NCBI GenBank assembly: GCA_009784515.1
Contig: WRBN01000009.1
Coordinates: forward strand, 1-34,855
Length of the DNA stretch: 34,855 nt
DNA from: Spirochaetaceae bacterium
GTDB lineage: Bacteria; Spirochaetota; Spirochaetia; WRBN01
Direction of reading: 5' to 3'
Part shown: positions 23,325 to 30,802 of the stretch, one piece after another
Position numbering within the stretch: position 1 is the stretch's first letter
How the letters are laid out: every line of letters begins with the position of its first letter
The notes under the pieces: generated by a model
What the model was told of the DNA's origin: nothing
Database searches by the model: none
The model's input: only the letters and a program-made list of their open reading frames with translations
Program-made: the position numbers and the translations under genes

Positions 23325-23927
23325 TTATAGCCTATCGGCGGGGTTAATTATGGTATCTATACAGTTATCAATAATATTATAAAAAGTTTTATGTTCGTTT
23401 AAATCAAACTCGATACTCAGTAAATCTTCGCCTATAAAATAAAAGTCGGTAAAACCAAGCTGTTTAAAAAAATAATGAAGGAGTTTCCGTAGTTTTTCGT
23501 ACTTAGTAACTTCGTATACCTGTTGAGTGGTTAGCATAACAAGGATTTTACCACTGGGTAAGCTAGATATTTGGCCTAAACCTAAAGCGGTGCTCATAAA
23601 AAATTGCTTACATCTATCCGTAAAGGCTTTTAATTGGCTAGGCAAGTTGCCAAAATAAATAGGAGTAGCCATAAATAAAATATCGGCCTTACGCAGGCTA
23701 GCAAAAACCTCTATTAAATCGTCTGTCTCTTTGCAAACACCTAGTTCTTCTTCTGTTTGGCAAAGATAGCAAGCTTTACAGCCCCCATATTGCATATCAC
23801 CCAAAGTAAATGTGTCAATATTACATTGAACCGTACTTTTTTCGGCAATTCTATTTAAAAAATATTTACCAAAAGCTTTACTGGCCGAGTTTTGGCGCGG
23901 GCTGGCAAAAATAGCAGTAATATTCAT
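23325..23927 (-). CDS. Iron-sulfur flavoprotein-like, copy 1
   Basis: A 200-aa flavodoxin-fold protein of the NADPH-dependent FMN reductase/WrbA group. The FMN phosphate loop is ASPRQNSASKAF (residues 8-19), and ATPIYFGNLPSQLKAFTDR is the second flavin-contact region. Between them is a compact cysteine cluster Cys50-x2-Cys53-x2-Cys56-x8-Cys65; archaeal iron-sulfur flavoproteins (Isf) bind a 4Fe-4S cluster with CX2CX2CX4-7C, so the last spacing here is one residue longer than typical. Such proteins move electrons and are proposed to reduce O2 or peroxide. It has its own promoter. It is the most divergent of three tandem copies. Confidence 0.82.
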   Translation of the reverse strand: MNITAIFASPRQNSASKAFGKYFLNRIAEKSTVQCNIDTFTLGDMQYGGCKACYLCQTEEELGVCKETDDLIEVFASLRKADILFMATPIYFGNLPSQLKAFTDRCKQFFMSTALGLGQISSLPSGKILVMLTTQQVYEVTKYEKLRKLLHYFFKQLGFTDFYFIGEDLLSIEFDLNEHKTFYNIIDNCIDTIINPADRL

Positions 23928-23967
23928 ATATCTATACCTTTTTAAACACTTTAGTCAGATTAAGAGT

Positions 23968-23996
23968 ATTATAACATTTGCCGGTAAAAAAATCAA
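23968..23996 (-). promoter_or_regulatory. Promoter of flavoprotein copy 1
   Basis: On the minus strand TTGATT (23991-23996), 17-bp spacer, TATAAT (23968-23973) within TGTTATAATACT. The same 12-bp core precedes copy 2 and, nearly, copy 3. Confidence 0.7.
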
Positions 23997-24162
23997 CCAA
24001 AAATTAAGTTAATAGCAGCTAAGATTATATAACACAACGAACACATAATTTACTTATTTGTAATTAGCTTTAATATCGTTAAATAAACGTAAAAAAACAA
24101 GCCCTTTTGTGTTTTGCATAAAAAAGCAATTAAGTATTTTTATGCTGTAGTACTATAAATTT

Positions 24163-24747
24163 TTAGCGCTTAAAAGGTGCGGCCACTTTAGCTACACAAT
24201 CATCGATAGTATCGTAAAAGTCTTTACAGTCATTTAAATCAAATTCGATACCCAGTAAACCTTTACCTATAGTATAAAAATTGGTAAACCCAAATTGTTT
24301 AAATTGGTAGTGCAAGCTATTGCGTAAATCGCGATAATAATGAACATCTTCTTGTTGCTGTGTAGTTAGTAGAATAGCAGTTTTACCGCCGGGTAATCTT
24401 GTTTTTGTTAAAGAATTATCTATAGAAAGCTGCTTAAGGCGGTTTGTAAAAGCTAATAATTGGCTGGGCGTTCGCCCAAAATAAATGGGGGTAGCTATAA
24501 ATAAAATATCGGCTTGGTGTAAACTTTCAAAAACCTCCGTTAAGTCATCGGTTAAAACGCAGGCAGTGGCTTTAGTTTGACAAAGATAGCAGCCCTTGCA
24601 GCCCGAATATTGCATACCGCGTAAAATAAATTTGTTAATATTACAGCCGGCTTTATCTTCTTCGGTGAGCTTATTTAAAAAATATTCGGCAAAGGCGCTG
24701 CTGGCCGAGTTACGGCGAGGGCTTGCCAGTATTGCTATAACATTCAT
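24163..24747 (-). CDS. Iron-sulfur flavoprotein-like, copy 2
   Basis: 194 aa from the ATG at 24747, which has AAGGAGGGG upstream; the longer frame to 24777 is rejected because it runs through that ribosome site. FMN loop ASPRRNSASSAF, cysteine cluster Cys50-x2-Cys53-x2-Cys56-x6-Cys63 (within the Isf spacing), and TPIYFGRTPSQL. It is closely related to copy 3: shared GCNINKFILRGMQYSGCKGCY-like block and identical layout. It is probably an FMN/4Fe-4S redox protein. Its promoter lies at 24791-24819. Confidence 0.82.
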   Translation of the reverse strand: MNVIAILASPRRNSASSAFAEYFLNKLTEEDKAGCNINKFILRGMQYSGCKGCYLCQTKATACVLTDDLTEVFESLHQADILFIATPIYFGRTPSQLLAFTNRLKQLSIDNSLTKTRLPGGKTAILLTTQQQEDVHYYRDLRNSLHYQFKQFGFTNFYTIGKGLLGIEFDLNDCKDFYDTIDDCVAKVAAPFKR

Positions 24748-24790
24748 ATATTTATAACCCCTCCTTAAATATTTCAATCAAAACAATAGT

Positions 24791-24819
24791 ATTATAACAC
24801 TGAACCATGGGGAAGTCAA
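24791..24819 (-). promoter_or_regulatory. Promoter of flavoprotein copy 2
   Basis: On the minus strand TTGACT (24814-24819), 17-bp spacer, TATAAT (24791-24796) within TGTTATAATACT. Confidence 0.72.
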
Positions 24820-24863
24820 GAAAAAGTTAAGCTAAAATTTATAATGACTTAAGTAAAACAAAA

Positions 24864-24879
24864 CCCTTATTAATAAGGG
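24864..24879 (-). terminator. Terminator of flavoprotein copy 3
   Basis: A perfect palindrome CCCTTATTAATAAGGG; on the minus strand it is followed by TTTTGTTTT. It lies 26 bp after the stop of copy 3 and separates it from copy 2. Confidence 0.6.
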
Positions 24880-24904
24880 GATTTTAAATAAAACTTGGTC
24901 AAGG

Positions 24905-25498
24905 TTAAGGCTTAAAGGGCTCGGCCACTTTAGCTACACAAGCATCGATAGTATCATAAAAGTGTTTATGGTCGTTTAAATCAAACTCGATACTCAGTAA
25001 ATCTTCGCTGATAGCATAAAAATTGGTAAAACCAAATTGTTTAAAGTAAAAATGAAAGCTATTATGCAGGTCGCGATAGCGATGAATACCGGCTTGCTCT
25101 TGCGTGGTTAGTAAAACCAGTGTTTTACCTTTGGTCAGCTTAGATTTTTCGTTAGAAATTAAAAAGTTGCTCACATAAAACTGGTTGCACCTATCTACAA
25201 AAGCTGCCAGCTGGCTAGGGTCGCGCCCAAAATAAATAGGGGTAGCAATAAGTAAAATATCGGTTTTGTATAGGCTTTGAAAAACTTCGGTTAAATCGTC
25301 ATCTAAAACACAGTTGTCTTGTTTAGTTTGGCAAAAATAGCAGCCCTTGCAGCCCGAATATTGCATACCGCGTAAAATAAATTTGTTAATATGACAGCCG
25401 GCTTTGTTTTTTTCGGCAAGTTTACTTAAAAAATATTCGCCAAAGGCACTGCTGGCCGAATGGCGACGGGGACTTGCTAAGATGGCTGTAACATTCAT
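24905..25498 (-). CDS. Iron-sulfur flavoprotein-like, copy 3
   Basis: A 197-aa paralogue of the two preceding proteins. FMN loop ASPRRHSASSAF, cysteine cluster Cys50-x2-Cys53-x2-Cys56-x6-Cys63 with GCKGCYFCQTKQDNC, and TPIYFGRDPSQLAAF. The C-terminal region GFTNFYAI..DLLSIEFDLNDHKHFYDTID is shared by all three copies. AAGG lies about 10 nt before the ATG. Upstream is a further promoter followed by a hairpin and T-run, so the gene may be under attenuation. Confidence 0.82.
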   Translation of the reverse strand: MNVTAILASPRRHSASSAFGEYFLSKLAEKNKAGCHINKFILRGMQYSGCKGCYFCQTKQDNCVLDDDLTEVFQSLYKTDILLIATPIYFGRDPSQLAAFVDRCNQFYVSNFLISNEKSKLTKGKTLVLLTTQEQAGIHRYRDLHNSFHFYFKQFGFTNFYAISEDLLSIEFDLNDHKHFYDTIDACVAKVAEPFKP

Positions 25499-25939: not shown

Positions 25940-25988
25940 TATGGTACAAAAGGAAACTTTTTAACTTAATTACCTATAGGTAGTGTAT

Positions 25989-26459
25989 ATGCGTTGCCCC
26001 GCTTGTTTTATAGATAACGACCGTGTTATGGATTCGCGCAGTAATAATGAAGGCGATTTTATTCGCCGCCGGCGCGAGTGTTTGCAATGCGGCCACCGCT
26101 TTACCAGCTACGAAAAAATTGAGCAAAAACCTTTTAAGGTAGTTAAAAAAAATAATAAGCGCGAGCACTTTGATAGCGAAAAGCTACGCAAAGGCCTCGA
26201 GCTAGCCTTGCGCAAAAGGCCCATTAGTGCAGACGATATAGATGATATTATCGACTGGGTAACAACCGAAGCCGCCGAGCTGGGGCGAGCAAAGGCCGGC
26301 CGGGCTAAAGGCGAAATTGCCAGTACCCAACTGGGTGAGCTGGTATTAAAAAAGCTTTACGAGGTAGACAGAGTGGCCTATGTACGTTTTGCCAGCGTTT
26401 ATCGTAATTTTGATAATATTGAAGAATTTGTAGCTATTATAAAGGAAATGAATAATTAA
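25989..26459 (+). CDS. nrdR: Transcriptional repressor NrdR
   Basis: 156 aa from the ATG at 25989, which gives the canonical MRCPAC start; the in-frame GTG at 25983 is only two codons longer. The N-terminal zinc ribbon has CPAC and CLQCG with the family motif VMDSRSNNEGDFIRRRREC, and the ATP-cone follows (about residues 48-138, FKVVKKNNKREHFDSEKLRKGL). NrdR senses ATP/dATP and represses ribonucleotide reductase genes. It is directly upstream of nrdD with a 1-nt gap, so it controls the operon it belongs to; no NrdR box could be confirmed by eye. Confidence 0.95.
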   Translation: MRCPACFIDNDRVMDSRSNNEGDFIRRRRECLQCGHRFTSYEKIEQKPFKVVKKNNKREHFDSEKLRKGLELALRKRPISADDIDDIIDWVTTEAAELGRAKAGRAKGEIASTQLGELVLKKLYEVDRVAYVRFASVYRNFDNIEEFVAIIKEMNN

Positions 26460-26460
26460 A

Positions 26461-28539
26461 ATGCTAGATTGGAAAGTTTTACTAGGTCATAAACAAGAAG
26501 ACGCAACTTTAACCTACATTACAAAAAGAGCAGGTGAAGTTGAGCCCTATAACAAGCAAAAAATAGTGGTAGCCATTAACAAAGCTATTAAGGCCAGCCG
26601 TAAAGAGGCTAACCTCAAACTGGCCGAAGAGCTGGCTTTAAAGGTTGACGCTAAAGTTAAAGAACTACTGGCCGGCCGCCACAGCGGCAGTGTACCGCAC
26701 CTAGAAGAGATACAAGATTTAGTAGAAGATGTACTTATAGAAGAAAAGCACAAAGATTTAGCCAAAAGCTACATTTTATACCGCAGCCGGCGCAGCGATA
26801 TTCGTGAGGCTAAGCTAACTTTAGATGTAAGCACACTGGTAGATAGTTACCTAGACCGCAGCGATTGGCGCGTTAACGAAAATGCCAATGTCAATTTTAG
26901 TTTGGGCGGCCTTATTTTACACAATGCCGGTACCGTTACCGCTAATTATTGGCTTAAAAATGTTTACCGCCACGAAATAGCGGAGGCTCACCGCAGCTGT
27001 GCTATGCATTTGCACGATTTATCTATGTTTAGCCCTTATTGTGCCGGCTGGTCGCTTAGGCAGCTTATCGAAGAAGGATTAGGAGGTGTAGCCGACAAAA
27101 TTACCAGCAAGCCGGCGGCGCATCTTTCTACTTTAGTTAATCAAATGGTTAATTTTTTGGGTATTATGCAAAATGAATGGGCTGGGGCGCAGGCCTTTAG
27201 CAGCTTTGATACCTATCTTGCTCCTTTTATTAGAGCCGATAACCTAAACTATAACGAAGTTAAACAATGCGTGCAAAGTTTTATCTTTGGGGTTAATACG
27301 CCAAGCAGGTGGGGCACCCAAGCGCCTTTTACCAACATTACCTTAGATTGGACTTGTCCCGACGATTTAAAAGAACGCAAGGCGATTGTCGCCGGACGTG
27401 AGCAGCCTTTTACTTACGGAGACTGTGCTGCCGAGATGGCGCTGGTAAATAAAGCCTTTTTAGAGATAATGCTGGCCGGCGATGCTAATGGGCGCGGCTT
27501 TGCTTACCCTATCCCTACCTACAATATTACTAAAGACTTTATTTGGGAGAGCGAAAATGCCAAGCTGCTCTTCGAGATGGCTGGGAAATATGGCACACCA
27601 TATTTTCAAAACTTTATCAACAGCGACCTTAACCCCGAAGATGTACGCAGTATGTGCTGCCGCTTACGCCTAGATAAACGCGAGCTGCGCAAGCGCGGCG
27701 GCGGATTATTTGGCAGCGACGAATTTACCGGCAGTATCGGGGTGGTTACCATCAACCTGCCGCAGCTGGCCTTTTTAGCTGTAAACAAAGAAGATTTTTT
27801 TGCTAGGCTCACCCACGTGATGAATTTAGCCGCCGAAAGTTTACAAGCCAAGCGTAAGGTGGTAGCACGGCTCATGGAAGCCGGCCTCTTTCCCTACACT
27901 AAGCATTACCTAAAGCACCTAGATAATCACTTTAACACCATTGGTATTTGCGGTATGAACGAGGCGCTGCTTAACTTTAATTTTATTAACGCCGACATTA
28001 CCCAGCCCGCTGCTCGGGCCTTAGCCCTCGAAATTCTCGATTTTATGCGGGCCAAAATGCAAGATTACCAAGAAGAATATGGCAGCCTTTTTAACCTTGA
28101 GGCCAGCCCGGCCGAAAGCACAAGCTACCGTCTTGCCAAGCATGATAAAGAAAACTACCCGGCCATTATCGTTAGCGGCAATAAAGAAAGCCCTTACTAT
28201 ACCAATAGCACCCAGCTACCCGTTATGCAAACCAACGATATTTTTGAGGCGCTAGACCATCAAGACGAGCTGCAAACTAAATATACCGGCGGTACCGTTT
28301 TTCATTGCTATTTGGGCGAAGAAATTAAAGATTGGCAAATTACCCGCAAACTGGTACAAAATATTGCCCAAAGCTATCGCTTACCTTATTTTACCTTAAG
28401 TCCCGTCTTTAGTGTGTGCGCCCGGCATGGTTATTTAGTTGGCCAGCACTTTAATTGCCCTAAGTGCGAAGAGCAAAACCGGTTGGTTAGCGCCGAAATA
28501 ACGGCCATAAAAGAAGAGTTAGCTAAACGCAGTGCTTAA
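26461..28539 (+). CDS. nrdD: Anaerobic ribonucleoside-triphosphate reductase, catalytic chain lacking the glycyl-radical loop
   Basis: 692 aa. ATP-cone at about residues 15-110 for allosteric control, then the ten-stranded barrel. Active-site marks: SPYCAGW (Cys194), SMCCRLRLD (Cys399/Cys400, one of which would be the thiyl radical cysteine), RKRGGGLFG and GSIGVVTINLPQL. The C-terminal zinc region is present as SVCARHGY (Cys653) and CPKC (Cys666, Cys669). The chain then runs into a helix (VSAEITAIKEELAKRSA) and stops at TAA. The RVxGYxR..NWNxGK glycyl-radical loop that ends every NrdD I know is absent; it is encoded by the next gene. Without it the protein cannot carry the radical, so the two must work as a complex. 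It is otherwise full length and well conserved. Confidence 0.93.
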   Translation: MLDWKVLLGHKQEDATLTYITKRAGEVEPYNKQKIVVAINKAIKASRKEANLKLAEELALKVDAKVKELLAGRHSGSVPHLEEIQDLVEDVLIEEKHKDLAKSYILYRSRRSDIREAKLTLDVSTLVDSYLDRSDWRVNENANVNFSLGGLILHNAGTVTANYWLKNVYRHEIAEAHRSCAMHLHDLSMFSPYCAGWSLRQLIEEGLGGVADKITSKPAAHLSTLVNQMVNFLGIMQNEWAGAQAFSSFDTYLAPFIRADNLNYNEVKQCVQSFIFGVNTPSRWGTQAPFTNITLDWTCPDDLKERKAIVAGREQPFTYGDCAAEMALVNKAFLEIMLAGDANGRGFAYPIPTYNITKDFIWESENAKLLFEMAGKYGTPYFQNFINSDLNPEDVRSMCCRLRLDKRELRKRGGGLFGSDEFTGSIGVVTINLPQLAFLAVNKEDFFARLTHVMNLAAESLQAKRKVVARLMEAGLFPYTKHYLKHLDNHFNTIGICGMNEALLNFNFINADITQPAARALALEILDFMRAKMQDYQEEYGSLFNLEASPAESTSYRLAKHDKENYPAIIVSGNKESPYYTNSTQLPVMQTNDIFEALDHQDELQTKYTGGTVFHCYLGEEIKDWQITRKLVQNIAQSYRLPYFTLSPVFSVCARHGYLVGQHFNCPKCEEQNRLVSAEITAIKEELAKRSA

Positions 28540-28602: not shown

Positions 28603-29109
28603 ATGAATTTACAAACTTTATCCACCGGCGAGCTACAAGCTAAACTTAATGAGCTTGAAAGCCAATATGTAGACCCTACGGCAGAGGTATATGCCCGTAT
28701 TGTTGGTTATTACCGCAGTGTACGCAACTGGAACGTAGGAAAACGTGCCGAATTTAACGAAAGGTTAAACTTTGAGTTAAACAATGGTCAACCAAAGGCT
28801 AACCCTGCCGCTGATGACACTAACAATGAACCCTTAAAATGCAGTAACAATTTAAGTGCCGAAGCTGTTAGTTACCAGCTGTTTACCAAAGCCAGCTGCC
28901 CTAATTGCCCATCGGTTAAAAGTTTTGTCGAGGCTTTAGCCGTTAACGGCCAGCATTTAAGTGTAGACGAAGAGGCTAACTTTGCCCTAGCTAAAGCCAA
29001 AAAAGTATTGGCGGCCCCTACCGTAATTTTTTACGATGTAAACGGTAACGAGCTTTGCCGAGCTAATAATCTTAACGATTTACAAAGTCTTTTTACTAAA
29101 GCTGCCTAA
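28603..29109 (+). CDS. Stand-alone NrdD glycyl-radical domain fused to a glutaredoxin-like domain
   Basis: 168 aa with its own GGGAGAG ribosome site 5 nt before the ATG. Residues 3-22 form a helix (LSTGELQAKLNELESQY). Residues 27-57 match the C-terminal end of NrdD: EVYARIVGYYRSVRNWNVGK, with Gly35 as the predicted radical glycine, then RAEFNERLNF. Residues 58-88 are a Pro/Asn/Ala linker. Residues 89-168 are a glutaredoxin/NrdH-like fold with the redox motif Cys99-Pro-Asn-Cys102 and a cis-proline region AAPTVIFYD (Pro139). Role by inference: it supplies the glycyl radical to NrdD in trans, and its redoxin reduces the active-site disulfide after each turnover. The reading frame equals that of nrdD, but two TAA codons and 63 bp lie between. 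The Cys that precedes EVYSR in many NrdD proteins is Ala27 here. Confidence 0.85.
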   Translation: MNLQTLSTGELQAKLNELESQYVDPTAEVYARIVGYYRSVRNWNVGKRAEFNERLNFELNNGQPKANPAADDTNNEPLKCSNNLSAEAVSYQLFTKASCPNCPSVKSFVEALAVNGQHLSVDEEANFALAKAKKVLAAPTVIFYDVNGNELCRANNLNDLQSLFTKAA

Positions 29110-29129
29110 GATTTAGGTGGCTTTAGTAA
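29093..29129 (+). other. Hairpin across the stop of the glycyl-radical subunit gene
   Basis: Arms TTACTAAAGC (29093-29102) and GCTTTAGTAA (29120-29129) give a perfect 10-bp stem that encloses the TAA stop at 29107-29109. It lies 8 nt before the next ribosome site (AAAGGAG). It is not followed by a T-run, so it is more likely an mRNA stability or processing element than a full terminator. Confidence 0.45.
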
Positions 29130-29145
29130 GAAAAAGGAGTAACAA

Positions 29146-29541
29146 ATGCAAACATTCTGGAGAGATGTTTTAAAAATTGGTTTTGATGATATTGACGACC
29201 AACACAAGGTATTAGTTGGTTATTTAGATAAAATGGTAGCTGCCAAGGCCAACGATGCCGAAGAAGTTAAAGCGGTTTTAACTGGGCTGGAAGAATATGT
29301 AAATTATCATTTTAGTTACGAAGAGGCCAAACTTGCCGCCGCCGGTTTTGTAAAGCTGGAAGAACATAAAAAAGAGCACAAAAACTTTGCCCTTGCTGTA
29401 CAAGCTAAAGTAAGTGAGTACCAAAACAGTAACTACGACGTGGACGAAATGGTTACCTTTTTAAAGGAATGGCTGGTTAAGCATATTATGGTTAAGGACC
29501 GTATTTGGGCTAAGTATTTATTAGAACAAGCTAAGAATTAG
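29146..29541 (+). CDS. Bacteriohemerythrin, copy 1
   Basis: A 131-aa single-domain hemerythrin. All seven di-iron ligands can be placed: His20 (DDQHKVL), His55 and Glu59 (YHFSYEE), His74 and His78 (EEHKKEH), His113 and Asp118 (HIMVKD). Proteins of this kind bind O2 reversibly at a non-haem di-iron site and may store, deliver or remove it. It lies 36 nt after the glycyl-radical subunit gene with a good AAAGGAG site, so it is probably part of the nrd operon. It is a paralogue of the 29717 gene: both start MQT(F/L)W and end with LLEQ(A/T)K. Confidence 0.92.
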   Translation: MQTFWRDVLKIGFDDIDDQHKVLVGYLDKMVAAKANDAEEVKAVLTGLEEYVNYHFSYEEAKLAAAGFVKLEEHKKEHKNFALAVQAKVSEYQNSNYDVDEMVTFLKEWLVKHIMVKDRIWAKYLLEQAKN

Positions 29542-29620
29542 AGTTGTTATTGAATAGCCAATTTCGTTTATAATACCCTTTTGTATACTAAGTGCATTTA
29601 TAAGTGCCGTAATAACTTAG

Positions 29621-29649
29621 TTGACAAGTTGCCGGATATAGTTTATACT
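29621..29649 (+). promoter_or_regulatory. Near-consensus promoter for hemerythrin copy 2 and nrdG
   Basis: TTGACA (29621-29626), 17-bp spacer, TATACT (29644-29649). A second perfect -10 (TATAAT, 29569-29574) lies upstream without a well-placed -35. Hemerythrin 2 and the activase can therefore be made apart from the nrdR-nrdD transcript. Confidence 0.7.
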
Positions 29650-29716
29650 TTTTATTCAAAGCAGCTTAATTATGATTAAAAGGCGCAGTATAACAGTATA
29701 AAAGAGGAGTAGTACA

Positions 29717-30115
29717 ATGCAAACACTTTGGAGCGATGTTTTAAATGTTGGTTTTGGTGATATGGACGACCAACACAAGGTGCTAGTAAATTATTTAGAC
29801 CAACTTGTAAATGAAGGGCAAGAAAGAGGGGCTGAAGCCATTGCCACAATCCTAGCGGGGCTAGGGGCTTATGTAGGATACCATTTTAGCTATGAAGAAA
29901 AACAGATGGACGAGTTTAACTATCCGGACAGTGCAAAACATAAAAAAGAGCACGAAAACTTTGGTGTTCAGGTAGCGGCCGCCTTAGAAAAATATAAGGG
30001 GGGCGAATTTAGCCTAGACGAACTTATTGCCTTTTTAAAAAATTGGTTGGTTAAGCACATTCTGGTGCGCGACCGTATTTTAGCCACTTATTTGCTTGAG
30101 CAAACTAAGGCTTAA
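29717..30115 (+). CDS. Bacteriohemerythrin, copy 2
   Basis: A 132-aa hemerythrin with all ligand positions kept: His20 (DDQHKVL), YHFSYEE for His and Glu, KHKKEH for the His pair, and HILVRD for the last His and Asp. It differs from copy 1 mostly in the loop around residues 30-40 and in the helix before HxxxH (FNYPDS). GAGGAG precedes the ATG, and a strong promoter is 70-100 bp upstream. It ends 12 nt before the NrdG-type activase gene, so the two are co-transcribed. O2 capture next to a glycyl-radical activase suggests a protective role. Confidence 0.92.
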   Translation: MQTLWSDVLNVGFGDMDDQHKVLVNYLDQLVNEGQERGAEAIATILAGLGAYVGYHFSYEEKQMDEFNYPDSAKHKKEHENFGVQVAAALEKYKGGEFSLDELIAFLKNWLVKHILVRDRILATYLLEQTKA

Positions 30116-30127
30116 TTTTTAGTAAAA

Positions 30128-30802
30128 ATGATACAAGCCAGCTTACTTAAAAATAGCTTCTCAGATTACCCATCTTTGTTAAGCTGCGTGCTATTTTTAG
30201 CTGGCTGTAATATGCGCTGCCCCTATTGCCATAACAGCCAGCTGGCTTTAAATACCGAAACAAATTTAGAAGAATGGCCGGTTATCTACCAATTTTTAAA
30301 GGCTAGGGCCGGGCAGCTGCAAGGGGTAGTCCTTAGCGGCGGCGAGGCCTTACTTAACCCCTATTTACCCGAAATTGCCCATCAAATTAAAGCTTTGGGT
30401 TACCGGCTAAAAGCCGATACCAACGGTACCCTGCCTAAACAGCTGCTTACTTTATTACCATACCTAGATTACGTAGCTGTAGATATAAAAACAGCGGAGC
30501 ATTTGGCTTTAACCGGCTTAAATGATGAGCCTGTTTGGCAAAGCCTTAACTTGCTTAACCAAAGCGAGGTAAGCTTTGAGGTAAGGGCTGTGGTATCGCC
30601 CCATTTTTGTGGCGAGGTTCAGCTAACAACGGCGCTTAAACATATTAAGGCCGGCCGGGCTTTAGGGCTGCGGTTATTGCCTTTTAGGCCAATTAATTGC
30701 TTAGATGACAGCTTTAATAACTTACCGGCCACTAACGATAGCTACTTAGCCAAACTTAAAACTTTTATTGAAACCGAAGGGGTAAAGGCGCTGGGTTGTT
30801 AG
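30128..30802 (+). CDS. nrdG: Radical-SAM activase of the anaerobic ribonucleotide reductase (NrdG2-like)
   Basis: A 224-aa radical-SAM protein. The 4Fe-4S motif is GCNMRCPYCHN (CxxxCxxC, Cys27, 31 and 34), followed by VVLSGGEALLNP, the SAM-contact GGE motif, then ADTNGT and YVAVDIKT. The N-terminus SLLKNSFSDYPSLLSCVLF corresponds to the form found in the second NrdG subtype (NrdG2), which is longer than E. coli NrdG. It would create the glycyl radical on Gly35 of the 28603-29109 product. No Shine-Dalgarno site is clear, so coupling to the hemerythrin gene 12 nt upstream is likely. It overlaps the convergent gene by 4 bp. Confidence 0.85.
   Translation: MIQASLLKNSFSDYPSLLSCVLFLAGCNMRCPYCHNSQLALNTETNLEEWPVIYQFLKARAGQLQGVVLSGGEALLNPYLPEIAHQIKALGYRLKADTNGTLPKQLLTLLPYLDYVAVDIKTAEHLALTGLNDEPVWQSLNLLNQSEVSFEVRAVVSPHFCGEVQLTTALKHIKAGRALGLRLLPFRPINCLDDSFNNLPATNDSYLAKLKTFIETEGVKALGC

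Follow-up and report, generated by a model that had tools for sequence, protein, structure and literature searches.

Two bacteriohemerythrin genes within a split class III ribonucleotide reductase operon of a Spirochaetaceae bacterium

In the stretch of Spirochaetaceae DNA analysed here (34,855 nucleotides, referred to below as the window), two predicted O2-binding proteins, Hr1 and Hr2, are encoded between the genes for the glycyl-radical subunit of an anaerobic ribonucleotide reductase (RNR) and for its radical-SAM activase. The question raised by this locus is whether the two hemerythrins are functionally tied to the O2-labile enzyme or merely lie beside its genes. The genes nrdR and nrdD, the gene for a glycyl-radical/thioredoxin-fold subunit, hr1, hr2 and nrdG are arranged head to tail on one strand, with the following features:

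25983-26459, plus strand: nrdR, transcriptional regulator of RNR genes, 158 aa (TIGR00244, 171 bits; PF22811; PF03477)
26461-28539, plus strand: nrdD, catalytic chain, 692 aa (TIGR02487, 461.7 bits; PF13597 positions 1-532 of 562 only; alignment with Tm NrdD 4coi/4u3e)
28603-29109, plus strand: separate glycyl-radical subunit, 168 aa (PF13597 positions 533-562)
29090-29132, plus strand: 20-bp hairpin over the stop codon of the glycyl-radical subunit gene (MFE -24.9 kcal/mol, z -4.55; inverted repeat I2)
29146-29541, plus strand: bacteriohemerythrin Hr1, 131 aa (NF033749, 97.4 bits; PF01814, 47 bits; ligand alignment)
29621-29649, plus strand: sigma-70-like promoter TTGACA-17-TATACT, 5' of hr2-nrdG (11/12 match)
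29717-30115, plus strand: bacteriohemerythrin Hr2, 132 aa (NF033749, 113.5 bits; PF01814, 49.2 bits; ligand alignment; AF2 model)
30128-30802, plus strand: nrdG, radical-SAM activase, 224 aa (TIGR02495, 150 bits, cutoff 131.15)

Directly upstream of nrdR and on the opposite strand (23325-25498), three tandem FMN_red/flavodoxin-fold oxidoreductase genes were found, a trio that carries a CxxCxxC-like cysteine cluster. Four ORFs in a row on the minus strand (198-2397) resemble GNAT acetyltransferases, as judged from sequence appearance.

Hr1 and Hr2 and the signals around them

Hr1 and Hr2 both exceeded the cutoffs of NCBIfam NF033749 (97.4 and 113.5 bits versus 84), TIGR02481 (102.8 and 104.6 versus 51.75) and Pfam PF01814 (47 and 49 bits versus 25.3). 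The seven di-iron ligands, five His, one Glu and one Asp (H20, H56, E60, H75, H79, H114 and D119 in Hr2), are identical in the two proteins and align with those of the solved DcrH-Hr and Methylococcus bacteriohemerythrin structures, and both proteins are therefore predicted to bind O2 reversibly. The AF2 model of Hr2 is a four-helix bundle whose best Foldseek match was deoxy-DcrH-Hr (2awc, TM 0.76); the model was built from a two-sequence alignment and has a mean pLDDT of 78, with a poor N-terminus. Both are complete, single-domain proteins with no signalling or fused output domain. The original prediction of two complete hemerythrins between the glycyl-radical subunit and the activase is thus borne out.

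The two proteins are 52% identical and by far each other's closest relatives, the next best showing about 40% identity. They form one clade in the tree (support 100/99), in which the Hr1 branch is longer than that of Hr2. The pair has a dN of 0.38-0.44 and a dS of 0.99-1.38, and the resulting dN/dS of about 0.28-0.44, a rough ratio because dS is high, indicates that purifying selection acts on both genes. No insertion scars or mobile elements were detected around the hemerythrin genes, where nothing is conspicuous apart from the paralogue repeats and the hairpin. Their GC contents are 0.38 and 0.41, compared to 0.42-0.46 for the nrd genes and 0.40 for the window.

The gap between the glycyl-radical subunit gene and hr1 is 36 bp long, that between hr1 and hr2 175 bp and that between hr2 and nrdG 12 bp. 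The TTGACA-17-TATACT sequence lies inside the 175-bp gap and is the only plus-strand site with an 11/12 match in the 34.9-kb window; shuffling of that gap gave a chance of about 0.004 for such a match within it. Spacing and promoter together make it plausible that, as had been proposed, one hemerythrin is read with nrdD and the other with nrdG, and both are likely to be co-expressed with the nrd genes. Directly before nrdG no strong Shine-Dalgarno sequence is visible, and its translation may therefore be coupled to that of hr2. A scan for NrdR boxes using ACWATATATWGT was no richer than shuffled sequences (103 versus 95).

The hairpin at 29090-29132 immediately precedes the hr1 ribosome-binding site. 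It was considered as an intrinsic terminator between the glycyl-radical subunit gene and hr1 and rejected as such, since it has no downstream T-run and the terminator scan lists none there. The hairpin may rather influence the stability of the mRNA or couple translation, and it might reduce Hr1 expression. No comparable conserved hairpin was seen at the junction of the glycyl-radical subunit gene and nrdG in the relatives whose sequences were folded.

The RNR of this genome and its separate radical subunit

The locus encodes the NrdD barrel, the glycyl-radical site and the radical-SAM activase of a class III RNR, with the glycyl site on a second polypeptide. NrdD is composed of an ATP-cone, the barrel, an MCCR finger loop, a CPKC knuckle and a helical-looking tail, and ends before the glycyl-radical hairpin. 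Its PF13597 match stops at position 532 of 562, and the remainder of the model (533-562) was found in the next ORF, which encodes an N-terminal helix, the EVYARIVGYYRSVRNWNVGK hairpin and a thioredoxin/glutaredoxin-like domain with a CPNC motif. The glycyl-radical subunit that had been expected at this locus is thus present, not as the C-terminus of NrdD but as a separate thioredoxin/glutaredoxin-like fusion of 168 residues. Its AF2 model (pLDDT 86) shows two helices and a thioredoxin-like domain, and its Foldseek matches were thioredoxin folds, including a small chain of a B. subtilis RNR complex. In an alignment of 36 subunit sequences, the E.Y.RIVGYYR...WN.GK hairpin and the CP.CP redoxin motif are invariant.

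Among the sampled Spirochaetia loci (the window, L043-L072 and L103-L182), 89 NrdDs have the split form, 6 are fused NrdD-glycyl-redoxin proteins and 3 are classic, proportions that are biased because most loci were retrieved with the split subunit as query. The split form is also dominant among 47 nrdD-bearing genomes and, being present in 89 sampled loci, is not a frameshift in one assembly. The split NrdDs carry a charged, helical-looking tail after the CPxC motif. A tree made by a quick method suggests that NrdD evolved from the classic to the fused and then to the split form, with one re-fusion or two splits. In two genomes the glycyl-radical subunit gene is unlinked, at distances from nrdD of about 95 to 530 kb (G024: nrdD at C1:1446491, subunit at C1:919272; G044: nrdD at C1:1352031, subunit at C1:1448838); the redoxin domain is largely missing from the short subunits matched there.

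In NrdD, the MCCR finger loop and the active-site glutamate, which align with those of Tm NrdD (4coi/4u3e), fit the use of thioredoxin- or formate-type reductants described in PMC9669993. A redoxin domain on the glycyl-radical subunit would therefore make chemical sense. Where the radical is carried by its own small subunit, only a part of about 170 residues would be lost when O2 cleaves the chain at the radical glycine. Spare parts for glycyl-radical enzymes other than PFL have been speculated upon (PMC8683613), and the split operon makes this idea testable for RNR. No description of a split NrdD glycyl-radical subunit was found in the freely accessible literature searched. The split RNR is a more general finding than the hemerythrins and possibly the more important one.

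The genome (1.83 Mb in 129 contigs, 95% complete) was searched for further RNRs and O2-defence proteins. It contains no PF02867 match, hence no detected class I or II RNR, and no PF01228 match, hence no PFL-type glycyl-radical protein; nrdD occurs only at this locus, and nrdG is the only NrdG2 above cutoff. The sole detectable RNR is thus the O2-labile class III enzyme encoded in the hemerythrin-bearing operon, and O2 damage to the product of this operon would have no visible bypass. Hr1 and Hr2 are the only PF01814 matches of the genome, and a rubrerythrin is encoded elsewhere, so that the hemerythrins are not its sole O2 defence. The one genome of the same family that was sampled, a single case, has neither nrdD nor a hemerythrin but possesses a PF02867 (class I/II-type) RNR.

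Gene order in relatives and possible explanations

To see whether the arrangement is shared, 60 genomes including this one were compared, of which 47 carry nrdD and 43 hemerythrins. None of the 46 other nrdD-bearing Spirochaetia genomes, many with short contigs, shows PF01814 closer than 20 kb to nrdD on a shared contig; the nearest matches lie 21-28 kb away (G020, G024, G044 and G059). The glycyl-radical subunit gene and nrdG are adjacent at 80 independent loci taken from named genomes, with a gap of 3-317 bp, and no hemerythrin gene was found at any of them in flanks of up to 6 kb. The converse survey of hemerythrin neighbourhoods gave the same answer: none of the 56 loci nearest to Hr2 and Hr1 (29 at class level and 27 at phylum level) has an nrd gene within about 1.5 kb. 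A conserved synteny of nrd and hemerythrin genes was therefore rejected; relatives' loci of unchanged gene order lacking hemerythrins are the very observation that had been named beforehand as speaking against a fixed link. The arrangement was seen in one genome only, so a functional link has no comparative replication. The single clade formed by Hr1 and Hr2 and the hemerythrin-free synteny of the relatives point to one lineage-specific insertion followed by a tandem duplication. In other families of the Spirochaetota, bacteriohemerythrin genes commonly occur as tandem pairs or triplets that are not accompanied by nrd genes (G392, G398, G370, G378 and others).

Synteny and tree show that the ancestral Spirochaetia class III RNR operon consisted of nrdR, nrdD, the glycyl/thioredoxin-fold subunit gene and nrdG, and that one bacteriohemerythrin gene entered between the last two in this lineage before duplicating in tandem. 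hr1 would now close the message of nrdR, nrdD and the subunit gene, and hr2 and nrdG would be transcribed from their own near-consensus promoter. By binding O2, Hr1 and Hr2 most likely lower its free concentration at brief exposures and would thereby spare the only RNR of the genome damage to its glycyl radical and its [4Fe-4S] activase, by analogy with HerA and HerB of Campylobacter jejuni; contact with NrdD or NrdG would not be needed for this. We give about an even chance to this account, in which an insertion and duplication in one lineage yielded an O2 buffer co-produced with the sole, O2-labile RNR. The proposed local O2 sink remains plausible in view of the complete ligand sets, the likely co-expression, the O2 lability of the sole RNR and the confinement of both hemerythrins to its operon, although it would be limited to one lineage. 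Against it stand the restriction of the arrangement to one genome, the tandem hemerythrins that are common elsewhere in the phylum away from nrd genes, the hairpin that might reduce Hr1 expression, the doubt raised for C. jejuni that simple O2 binding suffices (PMC4257069) and the fact that a general O2 defence placed here by chance would look alike.

Nearly as likely as O2 buffering, local or general, that guards the radical and the activase, and in our estimate somewhat short of an even chance, is that a general-purpose cytoplasmic O2- or NO-binding hemerythrin was inserted by chance of location into a housekeeping operon with strong expression, was duplicated there and serves the whole cell with no special relation to RNR. 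Such hitch-hiking would fit the failure of the nrd link to recur in any relative, the tandem hemerythrins at many other loci of the phylum, the promoter-like site that hr2 has of its own and the occurrence of hemerythrins away from nrd genes in many Spirochaetia (38 of 47 nrdD-bearing versus 5 of 13 nrdD-lacking genomes, this one included, a difference confounded by ancestry and lifestyle). It accounts less well for the splitting of a tightly conserved gene pair by an insertion of which both copies persist under purifying selection, and for the whole hemerythrin complement of the genome lying beside its sole RNR. A chimera, in which an error of metagenome assembly placed the hemerythrin genes in the nrd operon, might be suspected from the 129 contigs, the restriction of the arrangement to this genome and the lower GC content of the hemerythrin genes. 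We consider it highly improbable, since each side of the insert borders one half of a single conserved operon, the nrdD and nrdG of which occur only here in the genome, and all genes are intact, collinear and tightly spaced, in a window of similar GC content.

Two further readings assume direct contact. Hr1, Hr2 or both could be accessory subunits dedicated to the enzyme, docking on the stand-alone glycyl-radical subunit or on NrdG and clearing O2 there; in this O2-guarded form of the split enzyme, a re-loadable class III RNR made of two parts could work in a microaerobic niche. We regard this as unlikely. Still more doubtful is an O2 sensor or gate, in which Hr1 and/or Hr2 would bind the glycyl-radical subunit or NrdG and the O2-bound form would block radical formation. 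The position of the hemerythrins between the radical subunit and its activase would suit such a role, and the divergence of the paralogues, with their 52% identity and the longer Hr1 branch, could mean two roles; however, the lack of a fused output domain and the completeness of the operon in all sampled relatives that have no hemerythrins make it less likely, and the gating of radical formation that had been suggested thus found no support. If the hemerythrins do protect the enzyme, this would be a natural example of an anaerobe whose sole RNR operon includes its own O2 protection, and genetics at the locus could show whether glycyl-radical enzymes are guarded by hemerythrins. In the literature searched, no report of a hemerythrin associated with an anaerobic RNR was found.

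Comparison with known systems

The closest precedent for protection is that of C. jejuni, in which the hemerythrins HerA and HerB protect the O2-labile Fe-S enzymes Por and Oor (PMC4257069). Like Hr1 and Hr2 they are di-iron hemerythrins, and herA lies beside the functionally related iscS and nifU; they differ in protecting Por/Oor rather than RNR, with no nrd linkage reported, and HerB has a Cys-containing C-terminal extension that is absent from Hr1 and Hr2 (PMC4257069). The same authors doubt that simple O2 binding by micromolar protein suffices, because O2 keeps diffusing in, and mention direct contact as a possibility (PMC4257069).

DcrH-Hr (2awc/2avk) and the hemerythrin of Methylococcus capsulatus (4xpx) resemble Hr1 and Hr2 in the four-helix bundle and in all seven ligands, and the Ile after the fifth His is common to Hr1, Hr2 and DcrH. 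Hr1 and Hr2 are lone domains, about 30% identical to these two, whereas DcrH-Hr is a domain within a larger signalling protein.

The RNR itself shares with the class III enzymes of the T. maritima/N. bacilliformis type the NrdD barrel, the double-cysteine finger loop (MCCR here) and the aligned active-site Glu, and differs from them by the glycyl hairpin on a separate thioredoxin-fold subunit and by the hemerythrins in the operon. Fragmentation of phage nrdD by introns or from unknown causes is known and differs from the split described here (PMC3653736). YfiD/GrcA is likewise a small stand-alone glycyl-radical protein (PMC8683613), and the subunit found here would probably resemble it in being activated by a radical-SAM enzyme and in completing a catalytic chain. 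An assignment of the subunit as a YfiD/GrcA cofactor was rejected, as the genome has no PF01228 match and the subunit matches the NRDD C-terminus instead. YfiD replaces the damaged C-terminus of a complete PFL, whereas the catalytic chain here never has a glycyl site of its own, and the small subunit is, unlike YfiD, of the NrdD type with a redoxin domain. Together with the split class II NrdJab, YfiD/GrcA is the nearest analogue of the split NrdD.
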